Shown here piece after piece: positions 6,234 to 50,537 of a DNA stretch of 64,000 bases (the first letter of the stretch is position 1; each line of letters starts with the position of its first letter). The stretch lies in assembly GCA_028821775.1 (NCBI GenBank), contig JAPKFB010000003.1, forward strand, positions 1 through 64,000. The letters run 5' to 3'. The stretch is from Roseibacillus sp. GTDB lineage: Bacteria > Verrucomicrobiota > Verrucomicrobiia > Verrucomicrobiales > Akkermansiaceae. The notes below the pieces were generated by a model. That model saw only the letters and a list, made by a program, of their open reading frames with translations, ran no database searches and had not been told where the DNA came from. Both the position numbers and the translations under genes were made by a program.

Positions 6234-7634
6234 ATGAAATTAAAATTTTGCGGCGCAGCCGGTACGACGACGGGGTCCCAGCATCTGCTGGAAGTGAACG
6301 GTAAGAAGATCTTGCTCGATTGTGGGCTCTATCAAGGGCGCCGCCACGACGAGTATGAGATCAACTGCTGCTTCCCGCATTTTGATCCCGCCAGCATAGA
6401 TGTGGTGGTGCTCTCGCATGCGCACATCGACCACAGCGGAAATTTGCCCAACCTTTGCAGCAAGGGGTTTATGGGGAATATTTATGCCACCTTCGCGACG
6501 CGGGATCTGTGCCAGATCATGCTGGCGGACAGTGCACGGATTCAAGCCAGCGATGTGAAGTGGCTCAACAAGCGGCTCAAGAAGGAGGGCAAACCGCTCC
6601 GGGAACCGATTTACTCGGTGGTGGATGCGGACCAGTGCATGCGGAATTTTGTCAACGTGGGCTATGACCGGCCCCTGCCGATTTCGGACGGGGTGACCCT
6701 TACTTTTCTTGATGCCGGGCACATCCTCGGAAGCGCCCAGATCATTCTCGATATTGAGGACAGGGAGGACGGGAAGAAGAAACGCTTCCTCTTCTCCGGT
6801 GATGTGGGACGGGGTGACAACGAGATTTTGCGCGACCCGGTAGCGGCCAAGGAGGTCGATTTTCTACTCATGGAAAGCACCTACGGCGGGCGCGAGCACG
6901 AAATGGAGGCCAAGGCGGACGATCGCATCGTGGAGATTCTCGATCGTGCCCTCAAGCGGGGGGGGAAGATTCTGATTCCGGCCTTTGCGGTGGAGCGGAC
7001 CCAGGCCTTGCTTTGGGTATTGCACCAGTTGTTTGAGGAGGAGCGCATTCCCGAAGTGCCGGTCTACGTCGATAGTCCGCTGGCGGTGAATGCGACCGAG
7101 ATTTTCCGTCTTCACCCCGAGTGCTTCAATGAGGAGGTGCACGCCTTTCTCTACGAGAAACGAAATCCCTTTGGGTTTGAAGGTCTCACCCTTGTTCGCG
7201 AAGTGCGCAAGTCCAAGGAGTTGAACGCCCAGGAAGGGCAGGCGATCATCATTTCGGCCTCGGGAATGTGCGAGGCGGGTCGCATTTTGCACCACTTGCG
7301 GAACGGGATCGGTGATCCCAAAACCACGATCTTGTTCGTTGGATACTGCGCCCAGCAGACCTTGGGGTGGAAAATCCGCCAACGATGGGAGAAGGTGAAA
7401 ATCTTCGGAGAAGAGTTTCAGATCCGAGCACAGGTTGAGGAGCTCGATTCCTTTTCCGGCCACGCCGATCATTCAGAGTTGCTCGACTACTTCGGTGCGA
7501 TGACAGGGGACAAGAAGAAGGTGTGGCTCATACACGGTGAGGAGGAGCGTTCCGAGATCATGCGCGATGCGTTGCGGGAAGTGCACCGCGGCGAGATCAA
7601 CGTCGGAACCTTGGGCGAGACGGTGGAATTTTAG
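6234..7634 (+). CDS. Beta-CASP metallo-beta-lactamase-fold RNase
   Basis: Translation from ATG 6234 gives 466 residues; a longer frame from a TTG upstream adds an unconvincing tail. Metal-binding HxHxDH is at 62-67 (SHAHIDHSG). Later MBL and beta-CASP elements follow: GHILGSAQ, SGDVGR, PAFAVERTQ, DSPLAVNATEIF, SASGMCEAGRILHH and the terminal SGHADHSEL. This is the KH-less CPSF73/YSH1-like group found in many bacteria, expected to cleave RNA in the cytoplasm. No partner gene adjoins; the downstream gene is convergent with only 9 bp between stops. Confidence 0.93.
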   Translation: MKLKFCGAAGTTTGSQHLLEVNGKKILLDCGLYQGRRHDEYEINCCFPHFDPASIDVVVLSHAHIDHSGNLPNLCSKGFMGNIYATFATRDLCQIMLADSARIQASDVKWLNKRLKKEGKPLREPIYSVVDADQCMRNFVNVGYDRPLPISDGVTLTFLDAGHILGSAQIILDIEDREDGKKKRFLFSGDVGRGDNEILRDPVAAKEVDFLLMESTYGGREHEMEAKADDRIVEILDRALKRGGKILIPAFAVERTQALLWVLHQLFEEERIPEVPVYVDSPLAVNATEIFRLHPECFNEEVHAFLYEKRNPFGFEGLTLVREVRKSKELNAQEGQAIIISASGMCEAGRILHHLRNGIGDPKTTILFVGYCAQQTLGWKIRQRWEKVKIFGEEFQIRAQVEELDSFSGHADHSELLDYFGAMTGDKKKVWLIHGEEERSEIMRDALREVHRGEINVGTLGETVEF

Positions 7635-7643
7635 CCCGCGGCC

Positions 7644-8444
7644 CTAGTTCGGGGGAGTGCGTCGAAGGAACGTCGACAGCTCGCGGAGTTTGTCGGTGTT
7701 GATCAAGTCAACGCCGGTTTTGTGGAGGATGCTCCAGCAGGATTCCTGATCGGGAACGGCCCAGAAGCGGAGAAGACGGTTCTCTTTGTGGGTGCGGGCC
7801 ACGAAAGCATTGAGCTTCGCGAGTTCTGGAGCGGGAATCTCGCCGCTTCCGCTCCACTTGAAATGCGAGGTCCAGTTGTCGCTCACCAGCGAAATGAGAT
7901 TGGCTGGAGCCTTTGTTCCAAGGTCGGGCGGGCGACCGTCGAGAGAACAATAGCGGGTCTCATCTGCCTCCAGCAGGGCACGAGGACGATTGCCGCTCAG
8001 GATTGCCATGATGGGACCAGGGCGGGCCCTGCCCTCGAGCTGAGCGGTAAAGAGATGTTGGTAGCGGGTGAGGAGTTGATCGAGAATCGGATAGGCTTCG
8101 TCGCCATCGCTCTTGATGTCGATGAGGATGATGAAGCGTTCGCTCTCGGGATAAACCTTGCCCTTGTGGGCCTGCACCCGATCGGCGAGCGGTTTCAGAT
8201 AGAGGGCTTCGAGAGTGTGGCCTGGGCGAAGTTCAGACTTTCCGTGTCCGACCAGAAACTTGCCGGCGACGAGGAAGATGTCCGCTTCCACGCTGCAGAA
8301 TCCCTGCGCAAGAGCATCGAGGAGCGGGCGTTCATGGCGGTAGTCATTGTGAGCGTGTGCGCGGGGAAGGGGGGATGGCTCCGCAGCGAAGGAGGGGGAG
8401 AAGCAGGGCGCAAGAGTGAGCAATGCGAAGAAGCGGGCCGTCAT
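7644..8444 (-). CDS. Secreted glycerophosphodiester phosphodiesterase/PI-PLC-like protein
   Basis: From ATG 8444 (266 residues) the protein has a good signal peptide ending about FAA-E. The longer frame starts at a TTG at 8486. Residues of the GDPD-type TIM barrel are visible: AHAHNDY (His30, His32), VEADI (Glu53, Asp55), VGH (His67), and a LIDIKSD strand. A family of secreted proteins with an H-x-H-N-D-Y motif is annotated as PI-PLC/GDPD-like in bacteria. It may cleave exogenous phospholipid headgroups in the periplasm or outside. No operon partner is seen. Confidence 0.72.
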   Translation of the reverse strand: MTARFFALLTLAPCFSPSFAAEPSPLPRAHAHNDYRHERPLLDALAQGFCSVEADIFLVAGKFLVGHGKSELRPGHTLEALYLKPLADRVQAHKGKVYPESERFIILIDIKSDGDEAYPILDQLLTRYQHLFTAQLEGRARPGPIMAILSGNRPRALLEADETRYCSLDGRPPDLGTKAPANLISLVSDNWTSHFKWSGSGEIPAPELAKLNAFVARTHKENRLLRFWAVPDQESCWSILHKTGVDLINTDKLRELSTFLRRTPPN

Positions 8445-8708
8445 CCGTTGAGGATCGCCAGTCTTGGTCTGAGTTGCACCTCTCAAATACTCCTTTGTGA
8501 GGAGGAGAGGCCCCAGCCTGCGCGGCAGAGTTGATCCGCATGGACAATGGGATTGTCAGGGTGGTGTTCACACTCCGAGGAGATGCTAATGGGGGCGTAT
8601 GCCTGATTGTGGTGGATGTGATGGATCCTCTCCGGCGACCTTGCGGGTCGGCCGTTTGACTCGGGGGCGAAGCGCCTGCTCTAACAACAAAACGCTCTGT
8701 CGGCGCGT

Positions 8709-8733
8709 CGTGGTGGAGAAATTCACCACCACG
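8709..8733 (-). terminator. Hairpin abutting the stop of the 8734 gene
   Basis: An 8-bp perfect stem (CGTGGTGG / CCACCACG, 9-nt loop) starts right after the TAG of the minus-strand gene ending at 8734. No T-run follows, so it may be a weak terminator or an mRNA 3'-end stabiliser. In the rest of the 8445-8708 gap I see no gene, only the putative promoter region of neither neighbour (both flanking genes are on the minus strand, so the 7644 gene's promoter should be here). Confidence 0.4.
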
Positions 8734-9423
8734 CTAAAGAAAGTCCCGGATGGAATGGAGCTTGAGGCGGGAGGTGCGGGGGTCGTTGTAGAAGAAGATC
8801 AAGCCGCGGGCTTTGTCTCGCAACGGCCAGTTGGAGGAAAAGAAGGACTTCCAAGCCTTCTCCTTGCGGTAGTAGAAAATGGCGTGACAGAGGTCCTTGC
8901 CCTGGTCCGCGGTGGGTCTGATGATGGTGTGTCTACCTGGTTTGAGGGCGAATTTTTTTGCTCCCACCTCGCCGGCGATGTCGATCTTGGTGGCATTGAG
9001 GAAGAGGAATTTTCTGCTTCCAAATTGAGTGGCGCGGTTGTCGAAGGGAATGATCGTGAAGCCGTCAGCGTTGGTGGCTCCCTTGCGCACGAGAAGGAGG
9101 AGTTGCTGGGAGGAACTGAGGGCCCTCGCCTTTCCATAGACCTTGAACTTGGGCGTCCCATCTGTGCCTTCGCCGATCTTGCCGACTGCCCAGGTGGCGA
9201 GGCGCTTGACCGAGTAGGGAGCGGAAAGCTGGTTGGACGGGATCTCAACTTCGAGGGTCTTGCCTTCCCCGATCAGCAATTCGATCGGCTGGGGTTTGGC
9301 GAGGCGCGGAAAGGAAACGAAGCGGAGAGTGACGTTCTCGCTTTGCTGGGCCAGGCAGGGATGCATGGAGGCCGCCCAAGCAAGGAGGAGGAGGGGGATG
9401 CTCGGAAGACGAGGGAAAGGCAT
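8734..9423 (-). CDS. Secreted conserved protein paired with Verru_Chthon protein A
   Basis: A 229-residue protein with a clear signal peptide (cleavage near CLA-Q, residue 25). The mature part looks like beta strands with no catalytic motif I recognise. Repeated phrases such as IPFDNRATQFGSRKFLFLN suggest two similar beta domains. It starts 36 bp after the stop of the Verru_Chthon protein A gene on the same strand, so it is probably cotranscribed. I believe small secreted proteins of this kind often accompany Verru_Chthon genes in Verrucomicrobiota, but I cannot check that. Function unknown. Confidence 0.6.
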   Translation of the reverse strand: MPFPRLPSIPLLLLAWAASMHPCLAQQSENVTLRFVSFPRLAKPQPIELLIGEGKTLEVEIPSNQLSAPYSVKRLATWAVGKIGEGTDGTPKFKVYGKARALSSSQQLLLLVRKGATNADGFTIIPFDNRATQFGSRKFLFLNATKIDIAGEVGAKKFALKPGRHTIIRPTADQGKDLCHAIFYYRKEKAWKSFFSSNWPLRDKARGLIFFYNDPRTSRLKLHSIRDFL

Positions 9424-9459
9424 ATTCTATTGTTCGGAAGGATTGGGAGGTGACGATGA

Positions 9460-12400
9460 TCATACTTCCTGCTTGCTGAGAAAGCGGAAACGCACGATTC
9501 GCAGCTTGCGGCCGAAGATCTTGTTGGTCTTGGAATCGAGATCGGCCTGCTTGAGGTGGGCTTCGTCCTCTTTGGAGTCGAGGTATTCGGGGACGCGCTG
9601 CACGACAGCTTCGCACCAGGCCCGGGCTGCGACCTTGCCGTTGCTATCGAGGGAGTCGCCGTAGGTCCGGATCACGAAGGTGTCGCCCCGGGGGGTGAGC
9701 TGGGCGGCGAAGTTGCGCAGAAGATCAGCTTGGTCGACGTAGGCGGCACTGCCATAGGCGACGGGGCCTTCGAGGGCCTCCTGGAACGGGGCATTCATTT
9801 TGCTGAGTTCATCGGGAGTGAAGCGGCGGTCGGGGGAGCGGAAGCCTTCGTTGATGGCGACGCTATCGTCATCGAGGGCCGCTTGCAGGGCTCCCTTGAC
9901 TGCGAGTTCCTTGTCGCTGGCATCGAGTCGCCGATTGATGAACTCAGAGAGTGAGAGGAAGGGGCCGCGCAGCTTGACCTGCTTGACGACCGCGACGGCA
10001 AGATCCTCGATTTCCTGATCGCTTAGATCGCGCCAGCTGGTCCATTGGTCGGGGTCAGCGGGATCCTGGCTGCTGCCTTGGTGGGGGGCTCCATTGGGCA
10101 GAGAGACTGATGAGACGGGGGTGCCGGTGGGGGCTTCATCATCGAGCTTGAGCCCCGTCCTCATGGCGGCGCTCTTTTCGAGGAAGGAGATTTTCTTACC
10201 CTTGAGGCTGGAGAGAAACACCTTCCAGGCTTCCACTGAGGTGGAATTGACGTTGAAGGGGCCCTTGAGGAGGAGGTGGGAGGAGATCGTGTCGGCAAGT
10301 CCGCCGACCGGGAGGCGGGCGTCGCGGAACATCTTGGAGAGTCGGCTCTCATCGATGTTTTTCAGGTAGGGGACGATGCGACGGTTGGGCAAGTCATCTC
10401 CTTCAAAGAAAAAGCGTTCGGCGATCTGTTCGGCGCTACCGCGCGAAGTTTCGAAGACATCGGTGGTGGCGGGAGCGATGGAGGAGAAGAAGTAATCGTC
10501 CCAGAGAGCCTTGTTGGCGAGGTAGGAATGGTCCGCCAGGGTGACCCTTTTGTCGCTGATGTCTTCGCTGAATTCGCGGGTCCAGTTGGTGGAGGCTTCA
10601 TCGGCCTTGATGTAGGGATGAGCGTATGAATTTCCGATCGCTTGCAGGGTGTGGGGAAAGAGCCCGCCCTGTCCGCTGGCGGTGGTGCGCTGGAAGGCGT
10701 CGAAGGTGTTGCTGGCGCGGGAACCGAGCGCTTCATTGGCGAGGCTGAAACCGCCGAGGTGGGCATGGCTGAGGGAGGCAATGGAGATTGGGGGGACGAC
10801 CGGAACCTCTTGCTGGACGACGTTGGTGGTGCCGGTCTCGGTGGTGTAGCCGCCCCCATAGAATCCTTGATTCTGCCGGTTGACGGCCACGTTGGCTTCA
10901 AACACCGAGTTGATATTCTCGACCCACCAGTTCCATCCGTGGTGGTAAAAGGAGTCGTCATCGGCGCGGTCGATGAAGGCTGTCCCGGTGATGGGGGTTG
11001 AGTGCAGGAAGGGGCGGCTGGTGAAGTGGCGTCCGGCATAGGCCCCGGCATTCGACGATTCGTGGGTTTCACATCCCGCCACCAGGTTGACGAGCAGGAA
11101 GGGCTCATAGTCGGCGGCGATAATAGCGGCGCCCGAACGAGGTGGGTAGCTGATCTTGGTTTCCTCATTCGGGAAGGACTTTTTCATCAGTTGGGCGTTG
11201 AAGCGCTTGGTCTTGACCACTCCGTTCACCCGCGAACCCATGCGGCTGCAGAGCTGGTATTGGCGGTTCATCCAGAGTGTGCGGTCGTGTCCGCCGGCCG
11301 CCTGCGACACGCTCGATTGGCGCATGAAGAACTGGAGGGCGCTGCCGTTGGCCAGTTCGGTGTCCTCGCTGGCTTCTATCGTGAAGGAGATCTGATCCCC
11401 GGCGCTGAAAGTGAGGGCGCCGTTTCCCCGGCTGGCGTCGGGGGGCTCGATGTGCTGGTTGTTGGTGCTCTGGTCGGAGCGGGGCATTTTCAGGAATAGA
11501 TTGGGGTTCCAGCCCGGAACGACTTCCCGGTCGGCCTTGAAGACGTTGGAGTTGACCAAGCGGTTGAGGCCGGATCTCCCGAGGGAAAAGACGCGGACTT
11601 CGCCGGGTTCAAAGACGATGGGACGGATGCCGGAAAAGAAGAGAGTGAAGCCCGTGTCGCGGTCCCCCCCCGAACTGAGGCCGTTTGTGATCCATGCCAG
11701 GGACGTGTCCGTGGAGGAAATGTACTGGCCGTTGTTTTTGTTCCAGCGGATGGCAAGGGGCAGGTTGAAGAAGCGCATCTGGGTGGCGTAGTGCATTGGA
11801 TCGCCGTGGTTCATGACCAGCGGAACGTTGTAGGGGTTCCAGAGGGTCATGGAGGGGGTGATGCCCAGATGGAGTTTGTGGGTGTCCGTGTTCCTGGGGT
11901 TGTTACGTTGTTCCGTCGAAGTCCGGGGCTCGGCGGTGGTGCTGAGGAGGAACTGAAGTTTGATGGGCACGGGGAGGCGGTAGAGGTTGGTATACTCGCG
12001 TTTAAAAGCTGGGCCTCCGCTCCCAAAATCGGGATTGCTGATCTGAATCCCGCTGCGCAGAAGCCGCGACCCGAAGGTCACGCCCTTGTGGCGGTAGAGT
12101 TGGTAGTAGGCTGCGAGGTCCTGGATGGGAACGCGCTCCTGCCCGGCGGCGTCGAAGCGATAGAGCATGAACTGGTCGCTTGTTTCGCGGTCGTTGATGG
12201 GGCGCTCAAGGAGGGTGGTCAGATCGCGTTTGAGGCCGCCCTCCCGCACATCAGCCAGGACCTGGTAGGAATAGGGCGTGGTGTGGTGGAAGTTGTTCGG
12301 GGCGTCCTCGGTGGCTCCGTCGACAAGGCTGAGGGTCTGCAGGGATAGGACGGCCTTCAGTTGCCCTTCGTCCGCCAGCTGTTCGAGCCCCTCGATGGTG

Positions 12401-13173
12401 CTGGTCCCGGTCGAGCCGGGAGCCTGGTGCCGGAAGATTTTCTTCGCGAGGGACTGCCGGTCGTCGAGTTCATAGGAATCTTCCATGATGCGGGCCTTCT
12501 GGCTTTCGTCACCGATCCACCACCCGTAGCGACCGGATGGGGCGGTGGCCCCTAGTCGGGAGCGAACCGGAATGAGGCGCGCATTGACAAAGTCCTCTGG
12601 TTTGCTGTCAGTCCCAAGTGATCCTCTTTCGACGAGGCGAACTGCGGCGGCATTTGCCCCCGGTGCGACCGAACCTTCGAGAGAAAGGTTGAGGGCGGTT
12701 GAAAGCTCCCCGGTCTCACTTTGATTGAGCGAGACGAGCCACGAGCGGAAGTGATCTTTTCGGTTCTTGGTGTAGGTCGGGTGCATGCCGGTGTTGGCGT
12801 CTCCCTTGATGGTGCGGTGCTCGCTTGGCTCGTCGGGGCTATTCTGGGCGCCATCGAGCTCGCCAGCCCGCCATGAATCCCACACTCCAGTCCAATGCCG
12901 GTGGCCGAGAGTATTTGCCAGAATGGTGCTTTCCGCGGAGACCCGTTGGTCGGGACCGAGTTGCTGCTGCAATTCGCCGATGGCCAGCATGAGCGCAAGG
13001 CGGGCATTGGCGCGGGCCTCCATCAGGGCGGCATCCTGCGAGGTGGTGCGGATTGTAACGGTGCTGAGGCTGAGCAGGGCGATGGCAACCAAGCTGAGAA
13101 GGACCAGCATGCTGATGGTTGTCAGGAGTGCAAACCCGTTGCGTTCGGAGTGGAGGGATGATTGGGTTTTCAT
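9460..13173 (-). CDS. Verru_Chthon cassette protein A (prepilin-like giant pseudopilin)
   Basis: A 1237-residue protein whose N-terminus is prepilin-like: a charged leader, NGFALLTTISMLVLLSLVAI, and one membrane helix, then a very long exported domain. The leader, the length and internal blocks (YHHGWNWWVEN, SLSHAHLGGFSLANEA) fit the Verru_Chthon cassette A family, known mainly from Verrucomicrobiota. Such proteins resemble type IV pseudopilins and are presumed to be processed by prepilin peptidase. Cassette proteins B, C and D usually accompany A but none is seen here. The start ATG at 13173 gives the typical short leader. A tRNA gene lies about 200 bp upstream. Confidence 0.85.
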   Translation of the reverse strand: MKTQSSLHSERNGFALLTTISMLVLLSLVAIALLSLSTVTIRTTSQDAALMEARANARLALMLAIGELQQQLGPDQRVSAESTILANTLGHRHWTGVWDSWRAGELDGAQNSPDEPSEHRTIKGDANTGMHPTYTKNRKDHFRSWLVSLNQSETGELSTALNLSLEGSVAPGANAAAVRLVERGSLGTDSKPEDFVNARLIPVRSRLGATAPSGRYGWWIGDESQKARIMEDSYELDDRQSLAKKIFRHQAPGSTGTSTIEGLEQLADEGQLKAVLSLQTLSLVDGATEDAPNNFHHTTPYSYQVLADVREGGLKRDLTTLLERPINDRETSDQFMLYRFDAAGQERVPIQDLAAYYQLYRHKGVTFGSRLLRSGIQISNPDFGSGGPAFKREYTNLYRLPVPIKLQFLLSTTAEPRTSTEQRNNPRNTDTHKLHLGITPSMTLWNPYNVPLVMNHGDPMHYATQMRFFNLPLAIRWNKNNGQYISSTDTSLAWITNGLSSGGDRDTGFTLFFSGIRPIVFEPGEVRVFSLGRSGLNRLVNSNVFKADREVVPGWNPNLFLKMPRSDQSTNNQHIEPPDASRGNGALTFSAGDQISFTIEASEDTELANGSALQFFMRQSSVSQAAGGHDRTLWMNRQYQLCSRMGSRVNGVVKTKRFNAQLMKKSFPNEETKISYPPRSGAAIIAADYEPFLLVNLVAGCETHESSNAGAYAGRHFTSRPFLHSTPITGTAFIDRADDDSFYHHGWNWWVENINSVFEANVAVNRQNQGFYGGGYTTETGTTNVVQQEVPVVPPISIASLSHAHLGGFSLANEALGSRASNTFDAFQRTTASGQGGLFPHTLQAIGNSYAHPYIKADEASTNWTREFSEDISDKRVTLADHSYLANKALWDDYFFSSIAPATTDVFETSRGSAEQIAERFFFEGDDLPNRRIVPYLKNIDESRLSKMFRDARLPVGGLADTISSHLLLKGPFNVNSTSVEAWKVFLSSLKGKKISFLEKSAAMRTGLKLDDEAPTGTPVSSVSLPNGAPHQGSSQDPADPDQWTSWRDLSDQEIEDLAVAVVKQVKLRGPFLSLSEFINRRLDASDKELAVKGALQAALDDDSVAINEGFRSPDRRFTPDELSKMNAPFQEALEGPVAYGSAAYVDQADLLRNFAAQLTPRGDTFVIRTYGDSLDSNGKVAARAWCEAVVQRVPEYLDSKEDEAHLKQADLDSKTNKIFGRKLRIVRFRFLSKQEV

Positions 13174-43743: not shown

Positions 43744-45225
43744 TCACGCCAGCACGCCTTTCACGATCTTGCCATGAACATCGGTCAGTCGATAGTGGCG
43801 ACCTTGGAAACGGTAGGTCAGCCGTTTATGATCGATTCCAAGCAGGTGGAGGATTGTGGCGTTGAGATCGTGGATGTGGACACCCTTGGTCGGCTTGTCG
43901 ACGATGTTGTAGCTCCAGTCATCGGTCTCCCCGTAACTGGTGCCACCCTTGATGCCGCCTCCGGCCATCCAGATGGAGAAACAGCGGGGATGATGATCGC
44001 GGCCGTAATTCGTTGCGTTTCCACCTTGGCGGTAGACCGTGCGCCCAAATTCTCCGCCCCAAACCACCAGGGTGTCGTCGAGCATGCCGCGACTCCTGAG
44101 ATCTTGGACCAGGGCGGAAGATCCCTGGTCGACTTCCTTGGCCAGCTTGGGATGACGACCGGGAAGATTGGAATGATGATCCCAACCACGGTGGTAAAGT
44201 TGGATGAAGCGCACATCGCGTTCGGCCAGTCGACGAGCGAGCAGGCAATTGGCGGCGTGCGTTCCAGGGGTGCGGGCGTCCTCGCCATAGAGCTTGAACG
44301 TGCTTTCTGGTTCGTCCGAGAAGTCCGTCAATTCAGGAACCGAGATTTGCATGCGGTAGGCCATTTCGTACTGAGCGATGCGCGTGGCGATTTCCGGATC
44401 CCCGACCTGTTCGAAGCGTTGCTGGTTGAGCTCTGCCAGAACATCGAGCATCTCGCGTCGTTCCTGCAACCCCGCGCCGGTGGGATCCTTGAGGTAGAGG
44501 ACGGGATCGCCAACTCCGCGCAGTTTCACCCCTTGGTGATTGGAGGGAAGAAATCCACTGCCCCAGAGTCGCGAGTAGGTTGGTTGGGCTTGGTTATCCG
44601 AATTCTTGTCGAGGAGAACCACGAAGGCCGGGAGGTTCGCGTTGGTGCTGCCGAGGCCGTAGCTCGCCCAGGCCCCGAGCGAAGGGCGTCCCGGTTGCTG
44701 ATGACCGGTTTGGAAAAAGGTGATCGCCGGGTCGTGATTGATCGCCTCCGTGTACATCGATCTGATGATGCACATCTCATCTGCGATCTTCTGATGGTGG
44801 GGCAACATATCGCTGATCCACTGCCCGGATTGTCCACACTGCGTGAATTTGTTGAACGACTTTGCAGCGGGAAAAGACTTCTGTCTCGAGGTCATTCCGG
44901 TAAGGCGTTGGCCTCCGCGAATGGAATCAGGCAGGTTCTGGCCATCGAGTTTTTCGAGGGTCGGTTTGTAGTCGAAGGTGTCGACTTGAGAAGGCGCGCC
45001 CGATTGGAAGAGATAGATCACACGCTTGGCCTTGGGTGCGAAGTGAACCGGTCCGGCTTCCCCGGGGCGGTATCCCGGGCCGTTCTTTTCGGCGCGGCTC
45101 GCAGCCTGAATTGTGGGTGAGTTCAGGAGGGAAGCCAGCGCCGCAGCGCCAAGTCCCGCCGTGGTGCCGCGTTGGAGGAAGTGGCGGCGTGTCAGATTGA
45201 TATGATGCTCGGTAAGGGGGTCCAT
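43744..45225 (-). CDS. DUF1501 protein (Tat-exported, alkaline-phosphatase-like fold)
   Basis: A 493-residue protein with a Tat signal ([25 protein letters not shown]). Characteristic DUF1501 stretches: [82 protein letters not shown] and [19 protein letters not shown]. These exported proteins of unknown activity belong to the alkaline-phosphatase/sulfatase superfamily. They are nearly always next to a PSD1/DUF1553 gene, here 5 bp upstream. The pair probably acts together at the envelope. Confidence 0.95.
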
Positions 45226-45230
45226 GGTCG

Positions 45231-48200
45231 TTATCCTTTGGTGATGGCTTCGCTCAGGTTGAGGAGCATTCGTGCGACCGCGGTGTAGGCGGCGTGTTCG
45301 GGAATATTGAGGTTCTCGTTCCGGGGGAGGGAGCCAATCCCGAGAAGGGTCTTCGCGCTAGGCTCGTCCGCCTGGTAGTGGGCCAGTCTCTTGTTGAGCG
45401 CTCGCCTGAGGATGGCTAGTTCTCCAGCGGACGGCACTCGCGAGGTGACCGTGCGGAAACCAAATCGCAATCGATCGTCAGGGGAACTCCCGCCTTTCTG
45501 GATCATTCGCTGGGCGAGGAAGCGGGCTGCTTCCACAAACTGCGGATCGTGCATCAAGACAAAGGCTTGCAGAGGAGTGTTGGTCCGCGATCGGCGGACC
45601 ATGCAAAACTCCCGTTCTGGGGCATCAAAGGTCGCCATGGTGGGAGGCGGCACAGTGCGTTTCCAATAGGTGTAGATGCTTCGGCGATAGAGATTTTTGG
45701 GATCCTTAGGGTGGGGGTAATTGCGCGAATAGCCCGGACGATTGTTGAGTTCCATCCAAAGCCCGTCCGGGTGATAGGGATACACCGATGGACCGCCGAT
45801 TTGTGGCTGCAGCAAGCCGCTTGCGGAGAGTGCACTGTCGCGGATAACTTCACCGTCCAGGCGCATCCGGGGGCCGTGGGAGAGGAGCCGGTTCTCTGGG
45901 TCGCGGGTGTGTATGCCGGGCGAGATCCGGGAGGACTGGCGGTAGGTGGCTGAGAGGATGATCTGTTTGAGTAGCCCCTTCACGTCCCATCCGGAATCAA
46001 CAAACTCCACCGCAAGCCAGTCGAGGAGATGCGGATGACTTGGCCACGCGCTCTGGCGGCCAAAGTCCTCACTCGATTTCACGATCCCCAATCCGAAGAG
46101 TTGTTGCCAGAAGCGGTTGGCGGTGACCCGCGCGGTGAGGGGGTTGTCCGGACCGGTGAGCCACTTTGCGAGAGCGAGGCGATCTGCCGGGTGGTTCTGG
46201 GGAAGGGAGCCGAAGAAGGAGGGTATGTTTGCCCCCACGATTTCCCCCGGCTTGTCGTATTCGCCGCGTTCAAGGATGTGGGTCATGCGGATGCCTGGTT
46301 TCTCGGCCATTACCATGGTGGCCGGAAATGCGGTCTTGGCGCCTGCTTTTTCCCTGCGCAGCGAGGTCAGCTTGGCCGCGATTTTCACGAGTTCGGGTGG
46401 TCCAAATTGCCCGATGAGATAGTTGCGCAACTGCTCGCGCTGGGTGGTGGTTCGTTTGGGGGGAGCAAGGCTGAGAGCCTTCTGGATCGCAGACGGAATG
46501 CTCGCGGATTGGTCCCCGGTCACAGAGAGGCGAAAGCGTCCGATCTGGTGGCTGTTGCCGAAGCTGTGAATCATGCGCACCCGCACGGCCGCTTCTGCGG
46601 GAATGGGCTCCTCGAAAAGAAAGGTCGCGACCCGGTTTGCCTTTTTGGTGTTTCCATCGACCGCCCAGCCTGCCTTTCCCGTTGCTCCATCGATGGCTTT
46701 CTCGATGCCGTAGTTTTGCTGCTCATAGTCCGCCTCTGCGGTCGCAATCTTCACGCGATGTACTTTGTCGGCCAGCTTGTAGGTGACTTCGAATTCACTG
46801 AGGACATAGTTGCCGTTGGTCCCCCGGCTGGTCGACCCATTGGTCAGGCTGGGATGCATCAGTGCTTCGAGGCGGATGGCTCTCATGGGCTTCCTGCTAT
46901 TTTTGGTAAGAAGAAGATCGTAGATTTCGGTGGTGGGGTTTTTCCCGCTCGCGAGCACGCTTTGGTCATCCAGGGCCTTGAGCTCTGCTCCACCCTCAGA
47001 GGTCATACGGATCGGCACTCCCGTTTTCCAGGTGGGCCGGGGTCTCTTGCTGAGGGTTTTCTCCCACCTGGCCAAGACATCGTGCGAGCCGCCCGTTTCG
47101 AGGAGGAGGGCGCGATAGATCTTCTCGGCATCGGCTATTTGGTTCCCGAGGATTGTGTCTTGGCCCACGGACAACGGTGAAGCTACTTTGAGCCGTGGGT
47201 CGAATCCGTTCAGTCCGCGTTCCGGAACCTGGTTGAAAAAGGCGAAGAAGCTGTAGAAATCCTTCTGGGATACGGGATCGAATTTGTGATCGTGGCAACG
47301 GCTGCAAATCATGGTCAGGCCCATCCAGACCGTGCTCGTGGTGACCACGCGATCGACGACGTACTCGGTTCGATATTCTTCATCGATGACGCCTCCCTCG
47401 ATGGTGATGGGATGATTGCGGTTGAAGCCGGTCGCGAGACGCGTCTGGTCGGTGGCGTCGGGCAGAAGATCCCCCGCAATCTGCTCAATCGTGAATCGAT
47501 CGAAGGACATGTTAGTGTTGAAGGCATGAATGACCCAGTCGCGCCAGACCCACTGGTCCCGGTTGCGGTCATATTGATAACCGTTGGTGTCGGCGTAGCG
47601 GGCTGCATCGAGCCAGTAGCGGGCCATGTGTTCACCGTAGGACGGTGAGGCGAGCAGGCGCTCGGCGGCCTTGGCATGGGCGCTCGGAGATTGATCCGCG
47701 AGGAAGGCATCCAATTCGGCGGAGGTGGGGGGCAATCCGGTGAGATCGAAGGAAGCTCGGCGGAGCCAAGTGGCGCGGTCCGCTTCCGGAGATGGCGCCA
47801 GTCCCTCCTGCTCAAGTCTGGAGAGCACGAAGTGGTCGATCGCACTGCGGGACCAACTGGTCCTCGTTGTCTTCGGCACAGATGGGCGCTTGGGTGGAAT
47901 GAAGGCCCAGTGTCGGGAGAAATCCGCCCCTTCCGTGATCCATTTTCGGATAAGGGCAATCTCTCCCCGTTGCAATTTATTTCCACTCTTCGGGGGCGGC
48001 ATGACCTCCTCCGGATCGCTGCTCAGAAGTCGCTCGATGACAATGCTCTCCTCCGGTTTGCCCGGAAGGATCGCATGAAAGCCATCCCGCTCTGCGGTCG
48101 CCATTTCCCGCACATCCAATCTGAGCTTCGCTTTGCGTGCTTTGCGATCCGGGCCGTGGCACTGATAGCAGTTTTCCGAGAGGATGGGCTGAATGTCCCG

Positions 48201-48290
48201 GGCGTAGTCGATCTCCTGCGCGATCAATAACGTGGGCACTACGCTGAGCACGACTGTTGCGGAGACAGAAAGCAGAGACGGACAGCGCAT
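45231..48290 (-). CDS. PSD1/DUF1549/DUF1553 cytochrome protein
   Basis: From ATG 48290 the protein has 1019 residues with a signal peptide ([25 protein letters not shown]). Upstream starts at 48338 or 48530 are possible but less signal-like. Domains: PSD1-type cytochrome with CYQCHGP (Cys41, Cys44, His45), the DUF1549 helical region ([32 protein letters not shown], a second heme motif [13 protein letters not shown]), then DUF1553 at the C-terminal part ([22 protein letters not shown]). These planctomycete-verrucomicrobial proteins are of unknown function and pair with DUF1501 proteins, as here. It is divergent from the selenoprotein gene. Confidence 0.94.
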
Positions 48291-48509
48291 GGGTATATTA
48301 AGCGAAGATCTGAGGGAGTGAGCGAGCAGGAACTTCATTGAGACGGGAGTGTTCCCGGGAGGTTGGTCGACTCTGTTTGGAAGCCGTCCTGCTGCGGCGA
48401 GTTGATCGATGGATTCCGGTGCAACTTCGAAACGCTCAGCCGGTTTAATCCTTGCTGCCCGGATTCGTTTGTGGAGATCGGGGGCGCCATCGGTTATCAA
48501 CAAAAGATC

Positions 48510-50537
48510 ATGCTCATGCTCGCGCTGCAAATACGACGAACCATGCCTCTCGCTGCCATTTGGGGCCTTCTATTCCTCCCCCAAGTCGGAGCCCAGAAAT
48601 CTCCCGTTCAGGAAAACGAGTTGACGACCGTCGGAGGCGTGACGCCCGAAGCGGTTCTTAAACGCCTGGGCGCTCGGCTAGAGCACGGAGTTTCCGCTGC
48701 TCAATTGAGCAACTACGCCCGCCACTTTACCGGAATTGATCGCGATGCAGATGGGCGTCATTCCAAGGCGGAGTATATCGAGAACGGCAACTACCTGACT
48801 CCACAGGCGCGGCGTGGGATATTCAGCGCTGCCGATAATGACCTGGACGGATTTGTGACGAAGGCGGAGTACATCCTGAATCGAATCATCACGGATGAGG
48901 CCAAGGCCATCGTGCAGGCCATGGATGACGACCGGGACGGCTTGGTGCAGCGGCTGGAGTTCGTGAAGCATGCCAAGGCGAAACTGTCGGACGAGAAACT
49001 CAGTGGGGCAGTCTTCGCCGCCTTGGACACCGATGGGAACGGAGCGCTCCGAGTTCCGGAATACCTTCGGGTCTGGGGGCAATGGGCACGGACCGGTCGC
49101 AAGAGTCCCGCGCAACGACTGAACAAGGTCTCTGGCGATCCGGGTGCGGCCAAGGAACAACCGGGGAGGACGCGGCCTGGGGGGGCGCGTGGTCGAGAGG
49201 GTGGGGGACCTCCTCCAGGACGTCCCGGTGGTGGATTCAGACCATTCAGTGCAAACAGCGATCCGGTCCGTCTCAACCAAGCGGGATTGAAGATTGGATC
49301 ACCCTTGCCCGAGGTCACGATCGTGGACGCCGAGGGCAAAAAGTTTGAAACGGCCAGTCTCAAGGGCAGTTATTCTGTCTTGGTATTTGGTTGCCTTACC
49401 TGACCGCCCTTCCTGAAGAGTGTCTCCGGTCTGGAGACCATCTATCGTGACTACGCTCCCAAAGGGGTGCGGTTCTTCTTCGTCTACAAGACGCTGGCTC
49501 ATCCCGAAAGCGACGGCTACCTCAATCCCCTCTCCCTGGAAGAACGGCTCCTGCATGTTCGGGAGGCCCAGCGGACCTTCAAGGGGGTAAGCATGCCCTG
49601 GCTTTGCGACAACATGTCGAACGAGTTGAAGAAGACCTTGGGCGGATTGAATAATCCGGAGTTCCTCTTTGATCCCGAGGGCAAGATCGTCAGCTTGCGG
49701 GACTGGAGTTCGCCCAAGGATCTCCGGGCCGATTTGGTGAGGCTCGTTGGGGCGGTGTCCACTCCCACTCGGGTCGAAGACTTGAATCTTGAGTTTGAAA
49801 AATCGCCTCCTGTTGCTCCTCGGGGGGTGGTGCCGCGGATCAAGGTCCCCGCTGCCCTGAAGCCGGTCCAGGTGACCCCGAAAGATAGCGGGGAAAGTCC
49901 CTACTATGCAAAGTTGCGTGCTGAGGGGGACGATGAGCTCCTGAAGACCGGAGAGGGAACACTCTATCTCGGGCTCCACTTGGATCGCCTCTACAATGTG
50001 CATTGGAATAATCTGGTCGCACCGATCGAATACGAGCTCAGCGCGGCAGAGGGTACGATCATCTCTCCAAGGACCGGAAAGGGACCCAAGGTGGAGGCTG
50101 CCGCAGATAGCGATCCCCGCGAGTTTTTGGTGAGCGTGCGGGGTGGCGAAGCGGCGAACCCATTACGCCTGATTGTGCGTTACTATGCCTGCAACGATGC
50201 GGAGGGCTGGTGTAAATTAGTGACCCAATCCTATGTGATCCATCTAGAACGGGATCGGGATGCTGGGGTCGTGCGAGCGCGCGAGTGGGGCGCTGGTCGC
50301 CGACCGGGCGGTCCTCCGAATCGTGGCCCGGGCGGGCCGGAAGGGGGCGGGCCTCAGGGAGGGTTTTCGGTGGAACGCTTGTTCCGCTTCGACAAGGATG
50401 GTGACGGCAAGGTCAGCAAGGAGGAGTTGCCCGAGTTTCTCCGCGGACGCATTCTCGAGAGAATGGATGCCAACCAGGACGGCGTCATCGAGAAGAAGGA
50501 AGCCGAACGGGTTTTTGGAACTTCCGCCGGGAATTGA
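48510..50537 (+). CDS. Selenoprotein: EF-hand / deiodinase-like thioredoxin fold / EF-hand
   Basis: The frame is open from before 48510 to TGA 50535-50537 except for one in-frame TGA at 49401-49403, read as selenocysteine 298 of 675 residues. From ATG 48510 there is a signal peptide (IRRTMPLAAIWGLLFLPQVGA). Four EF-hand loops follow at 77-88, 109-120, 139-150 and 173-184, then a Gly/Pro/Arg-rich linker. A thioredoxin-fold domain from about 260 has C-L-T-Sec-PPF in the deiodinase position, then VYKTLAHPESDGY and LCDNMSNELKK as in deiodinase-like proteins. A beta-rich domain (about 380-580) and two EF-hands (628-639, 653-664) end it. Probably a periplasmic or extracellular calcium-binding oxidoreductase. 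Confidence 0.85.
49401..49438 (+). promoter_or_regulatory. Sec-specifying TGA and bacterial SECIS hairpin
   Basis: TGA is at 49401-49403. A perfect 6-bp stem GTCTCC (49422-49427) / GGAGAC (49433-49438) encloses the loop GGTCT (49428-49432). The loop starts 24 nt after the TGA and has G in its first two positions. Bacterial SECIS elements place a small stem-loop roughly 16-37 nt after the UGA with an early G in the loop. As I recall, the E. coli fdhF SECIS loop also contains GGUCU. SelB would bind here and direct Sec insertion. Confidence 0.8.

Follow-up and report, generated by a model that had tools for sequence, protein, structure and literature searches.

Bacterial deiodinase-like selenoproteins, with both Sec-containing and Cys-containing forms, were reported from the Sargasso Sea in 2005 (PMC1088965) and have been catalogued ever since without a known function or reductant; a 2026 catalogue lists them as UxxC proteins (PMC13188914). 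These proteins, known from the Sargasso Sea and GOS data and covered by the models PF00837 and NF038285, share with the protein described here a thioredoxin-like fold, a Sec site, a bacterial SECIS (bSECIS) and Cys homologues, and some of their relatives, for example L055, also carry N-terminal EF-hands. Vertebrate iodothyronine deiodinases share the F-G-x-x-T-U-P motif together with a nearby Cys before the Sec, which in the deiodinase 1 motif is found at position -2 relative to Sec. ResA/DsbE-type oxidoreductases also have a thioredoxin fold (for ResA, the target-normalised Foldseek TM reaches 0.81), and the C-terminal region of DipZ matches over both domains, with a poor rmsd. Finally, the N-terminal domain of DsbD (DsbD_N, PF11412) has in common with our protein an Ig-like beta domain, a W-x-N motif and two Cys near the C-terminus.

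The gene studied here lies on the forward strand at 48510-50537 of a 64,000-nt stretch of Roseibacillus sp. DNA (hereafter the window, meaning the whole stretch analysed). The sequence establishes its reading frame, Sec codon, selenium machinery, SECIS, conservation and domains, and indicates that it is a genuine selenoprotein gene; we put the probability that its product is a selenoprotein of the deiodinase-like thioredoxin-fold branch at about 95%. Compared to the catalogued UxxC proteins, the product has a CxxU motif, scores below the family cut-offs, a domain with a Cys pair and a clade of its own. It differs from the vertebrate deiodinases in having the Cys at -3 instead of -2 and in being bacterial, predicted to be secreted and equipped with EF-hands, with thyroid hormone an unexpected substrate. 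ResA, DsbE and DipZ have a C-x-x-C motif in which the second Cys follows the nucleophile, whereas in our protein the partner Cys comes before the Sec. As for DsbD_N, the corresponding domain is fused to its proposed thioredoxin-fold partner and not to a membrane transporter, and the sequence match is marginal. The combination of CxxU with a DsbD_N-like architecture is apparently a distinct and uncatalogued variant: within the libraries searched, we found no paper joining deiodinase-like selenoproteins with DsbD domains, no description of deiodinase-like selenoproteins in Planctomycetes and no curated model describing the CxxU variant with a Cys-pair domain.

One frame, one internal TGA and the relatives

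A single frame runs from the ATG at 48510 to the TGA at 50535-50537, which directly abuts a TAG so that the gene ends in TGATAG; the in-frame ATG at 48516 is a possible alternative start. With its sole internal TGA (49401-49403) translated as U, the gene encodes 675 residues, the putative selenocysteine being Sec298. This TGA lies in the context V-F-G-C-L-T-[TGA]-P-P-F, and Cys295 (49392-49394), a candidate resolving Cys, stands three residues before it, in support of the C-x-x-Sec motif proposed in an earlier, sequence-only reading of this DNA. Translation likewise bears out that reading's description of a frame open to 50537 and interrupted once, at 49401. Its expectation that standard gene calling would split the gene also proved correct: with table 11, two open reading frames are returned (48363-49403 and 49467-50537), and the break introduced by ordinary annotation falls right at the active site.

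The sister gene L021, from a metagenome-assembled genome (MAG), is 90% identical over residues 2-675 and keeps the same frame. For the 358 codons that follow the TGA, comparison with L021 gives a dN/dS of 0.26, whereas the two alternative frames give 0.78 and 2.8. This result shows that the part downstream of the TGA is translated in the same frame.

TGA occupies the same codon in at least 16 relatives across genus and phylum boundaries. They comprise 12 further genomes of the genus, L021 and the Planctomycete MAGs L022, L023, L070 and L071, and the TGA always lies inside FGCL[TA]-TGA-PPF. Six relatives (L034, L057-L060 and L072) have Cys at position 298, encoded by TGC or TGT within GCLTC, and eight have Asp within GDLTD. 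Cys295 never varies among the CLTU and CLTC forms and is changed to Asp jointly with the Sec in the DLTD forms. The homologues with U and with C to which the sequence-only reading had looked for confirmation are thus both found, and homologues ending at this codon, which it had named as evidence against itself, are not what we see: with TGA or Cys at position 298, they run on for approximately 300-400 codons. Taken as a set, these relatives offer Sec, Cys and Asp versions for testing what Sec adds.

In a tree of the thioredoxin domain, the protein belongs to a separate clade (support 100/98), and the Asp forms make up one clade. The window gene is placed among Planctomycete genes and apart from those of other genus members, with moderate support (90/92), which hints that it may have been acquired by transfer. 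L072, a Cys form from a genome without selB (G806), is nested among TGA forms, a pattern as expected for a change from Sec to Cys with loss of the machinery. Viral relatives were searched for and none were found, and a PHROGs search gave no match.

The Asp clade (L061-L068, family f34) is a separate observation. Both active-site residues are changed to Asp (GDLTD) in this clade, whose members have no C-terminal Cys pair and begin with a long repeat region that looks like a beta-helix by eye. These relatives are apparently redox-dead and yet well conserved.

SECIS hairpin and selenium machinery

Downstream of the TGA, positions 49422-49438 form a hairpin (GTCTCC-GGTCT-GGAGAC) with a 6-bp stem, the 5-nt loop GGUCU and a folding energy of -8.2 kcal/mol. 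The sequence-only reading had described both stem and loop correctly and had placed the hairpin 24 nt after the TGA; this distance is the one to the apical loop (49404-49427), and the stem begins at 18 nt. The published bSECIS model specifies a loop of 3-9 nt with a G in loop positions 1-2, a stem of 4-16 bp, a spacing of 16-37 nt and a minimum free energy of at most -7.5 kcal/mol (PMC13188914), and the hairpin agrees with the model in all four constraints.

On its own, the window hairpin stands out only slightly: it lies at z = -0.5 when a 53-nt piece is dinucleotide-shuffled, and a synonymous-codon shuffle gives p = 0.06, which alone is not significant. A SECIS-type hairpin is, however, present in 24 of 24 TGA-containing homologues and in none of 16 Cys or Asp homologues (Fisher p = 1.6e-11, before allowing for shared ancestry), and because of this split we consider the hairpin to be beyond chance. 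Pairing in the stem reaches 97% in the close family and drops to 35-59% when the stem is slid; covariation is weak there, with one compensated pair. The mono-Sec subfamily (GSHT-U-GPF) has another stem sequence, in a register shifted by four bases. Because of this four-column shift, a pair tally in a single register across mixed subfamilies comes out too low.

The source genome (5.2 Mb, 94.5% complete, a draft in 200 contigs) encodes selA (492 bits), selB (300 bits), selD (365 bits) and a tRNA-Sec (68.6 bits), the latter reported by ARAGORN as tRNA-SeC with anticodon tca (UCA), so that the search for sel genes proposed in the sequence-only reading turned up the whole set. The selD gene (L018) itself contains a TGA at its catalytic position, in SSCAG-U-ASK. 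Among relatives, selA or selB is present in every TGA-form genome tested, and the genomes with Cys or Asp forms are without selA or selB, with G026 as sole exception. In two Planctomycete genomes the selenoprotein gene comes immediately after selD-selB-selA-tRNA-Sec, on one strand (L022:507-6356 and L086, equal to G711, 6690-12622), which suggests that it can be one of the principal users of the selenium machinery in these relatives; no linkage to a sel operon was found in the 64-kb window. The gene shows the features by which a bacterial selenoprotein is recognised: its UGA is in frame and coding goes on beyond it, some homologues carry UGA and others Cys at the site, and the genome has selA, selB, selC and selD.

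Could the TGA be something other than a Sec codon? If it were a real stop, what remains would be a pseudogene or the two genes at 48363-49403 and 49467-50537. Standard gene calling yields exactly these two frames, and TGA serves as an ordinary stop both for this same gene and at other places in the window. A stop here would nevertheless cut the thioredoxin domain at its active site, and it is difficult to reconcile with same-frame purifying selection on the downstream part, with the retention of the TGA across genus and phylum boundaries where only Cys or Asp replace it, and with the presence of sel genes and a SECIS. We therefore regard a real stop as very improbable, and reject a pseudogene in particular on the basis of the same-frame dN/dS of 0.26 after the TGA.

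The chance that the TGA is a sequencing or assembly error for TGC or TGT, which the sequence-only reading had named as a way for it to fail, is smaller still. The assembly is a draft in 200 contigs and Cys homologues do exist (L034, L072), but 16 or more independent genomes share the same TGA, and the hairpin occurs only in TGA forms; because independent relatives share the codon, we rejected an error. Equally negligible is a genome-wide reassignment of TGA (e.g. to Trp) or a non-specific readthrough, even though the frame would be open whatever residue TGA encoded. TGA terminates both the selenoprotein gene, at TGATAG, and the adjacent helicase-like gene, which means that TGA has kept its function as a stop codon here, and on this ground a reassignment was rejected. 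Furthermore, redox forms free of TGA have Cys and never Trp at the position, and a tRNA-Sec is present.

Domains of the predicted protein

The selenoprotein is composed, in order, of a signal peptide, four EF-hands, a Gly/Pro-rich linker, a thioredoxin-like domain, a C-terminal beta domain and two further EF-hands. The N-terminal signal peptide (MLMLALQIRRTMPLAAIWGLLFLPQVGAQ; 48510-48596), predicted from the sequence itself, would direct export to the periplasm or beyond. The four N-terminal calcium-binding loops (48738-49061, with start codons at 48738, 48834, 48924 and 49026) are identified by Pfam EF-hand_7 (3e-10) and by the positions of the loop motif, and the two C-terminal loops (50391-50501, starting at 50391 and 50466) by EF-hand_5 and motif positions; DxDxDG loops thus score above the Pfam threshold. 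Stand-alone genes homologous to the N-terminal EF-hand segment occur at L085:6214-7083 and L084:4050-4919, in G005 (L085) right behind the selenoprotein gene and in G006 about 8 kb off. Because the segment is a separate gene in these two genomes, the window gene appears to be a fusion, which suggests a functional link between EF-hands and selenoprotein.

The thioredoxin-fold domain (49260-49769) is recognised by Pfam, by a profile match to the PDB and by its AF2 model. It passes the gathering cut-off of PF00578 AhpC-TSA (30.4 versus 26 bits), falls just below that of PF00837 T4_deiodinase (24.6 versus 27 bits) and is under the curated cut-off of NCBIfam NF038285 deiodinase_rel (71.9 versus 250 bits). 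Searched against the PDB, the family profile of the domain retrieves type III deiodinase first (E = 2.9e-7) and ResA next, and the AF2 model matches ResA/thioredoxin folds. The label deiodinase-like given by the sequence-only reading consequently holds for fold and branch; with T4_deiodinase below and AhpC-TSA above the cut-off, it is not to be taken as a function. Thyroid hormone is not expected in these bacteria, and other organohalides are conceivable substrates. In the alignment with ResA, Sec298 is matched with the nucleophilic Cys; with Phe at +3, Cys295 at -3 is left as the partner.

The C-terminal beta-sandwich domain (49860-50255) bears a marginal resemblance to DsbD_N. DsbD_N is the top Pfam family for four of 14 relatives (best E 0.0013); the window's own sequence gave no match to it, and the gathering threshold is not reached. 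By hhalign against the DsbD_N domains of the source genome and of E. coli, the domain aligns with P = 7.6e-4 and a probability of 25%, with the Cys in register. The AF2 model (pLDDT 77) retrieves nDsbD among weak Foldseek matches in the PDB, with E no better than 0.01; other Ig-like folds are among these matches too, and NEAT and adaptin folds have scores similar to those of nDsbD. A profile search of the PDB with this domain gave no match.

Possible routes of reduction

Cys561 and Cys568 of the C-terminal domain (YYAC-NDAEGW-C, 50190-50213) form a candidate redox pair. The pair is kept in all scorable Sec and Cys forms except L021, which has Ser for the first Cys (YYASNDEEGWC), and is absent in seven of seven scorable Asp forms; Cys561/568 thus supply, L021 excepted, the conserved Cys pair of a DsbD_N domain. 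That the pair tracks the thioredoxin motif (CxxU or CxxC versus DxxD) suggests an intramolecular thiol relay. Because the Asp forms are one clade, the joint loss of the Cys pair with the change to the Asp motif may be a single event, and together with the Ser in L021 this means that the pattern supports a relay and does not prove it.

In our reading, SelB and tRNA-Sec(UCA) insert selenocysteine at the UGA at 49401, guided by the hairpin that starts 18 nt after it. For the chemistry we hypothesize the following mechanism, by analogy with thioredoxins, deiodinases and DsbD. In the exported protein, Sec298 at the nucleophile position would act outside the cytoplasm as a catalytic selenolate, its substrate being perhaps a disulfide, hydroperoxide or organohalide, and Cys295 would resolve the intermediate to a Cys295-Sec298 selenenylsulfide. 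The DsbD-N-like domain, via Cys561/Cys568, could then pass electrons to the selenenylsulfide from the DsbD of the cell and so reset the enzyme; the genome does encode a DsbD (L080), which has a DsbD_N, a membrane and a thioredoxin part. Ca2+ is probably bound by the EF-hands to stabilise or attach the protein, and perhaps the relay is tuned by calcium through all six. We put forward such a secreted and self-contained relay, in which the protein's own DsbD-N-like domain is fed by membrane DsbD, as a tentative proposal that we consider less likely than not. If true, it would be a selenoprotein with a built-in periplasmic reductase; the clade in any case supplies a candidate for a built-in reductant domain.

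We give about an even chance to a different arrangement, in which Cys561/568 are structural, an external thiol or thioredoxin resets the enzyme in the manner of peroxiredoxins or deiodinases, and the C-terminal domain is a substrate- or surface-binding module. The lack of one Cys in L021 and the weak similarity to DsbD_N fit such an arrangement, and so does the absence of the C-terminal domain from the mono-Sec deiodinase-like proteins that these organisms also have, L055 among them; against it, the pair, L021 apart, accompanies the Sec/Cys active site and is missing in the Asp forms.

The genomic context was also considered. Divergent from the selenoprotein gene, on the reverse strand, lie a gene presumably of DUF1501 type (43744-45225) and a large, putative cytochrome-domain gene, presumably of PSCyt/PSD1 type (45231-48530). 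The DUF1501-type gene, a relative of which adjoins the selenoprotein gene in L021, is the sole neighbour common to the window and L021, and the genus copies of the selenoprotein gene sit in other contexts. As a clue to the substrate, the conserved neighbourhood gave nothing usable beyond the link to the sel operon in Planctomycetes, and a scan for promoters and terminators gave nothing above chance.

The same genome contains a second deiodinase-like selenoprotein, L055 (G000:C13:39268-39768, with a frame from about 38600). It combines EF-hands with the motif GSYT-TGA-PPF, passes the PF00837 threshold with 79.4 bits and has the hairpin AAGCC-GGTC-GGCTT after its TGA.
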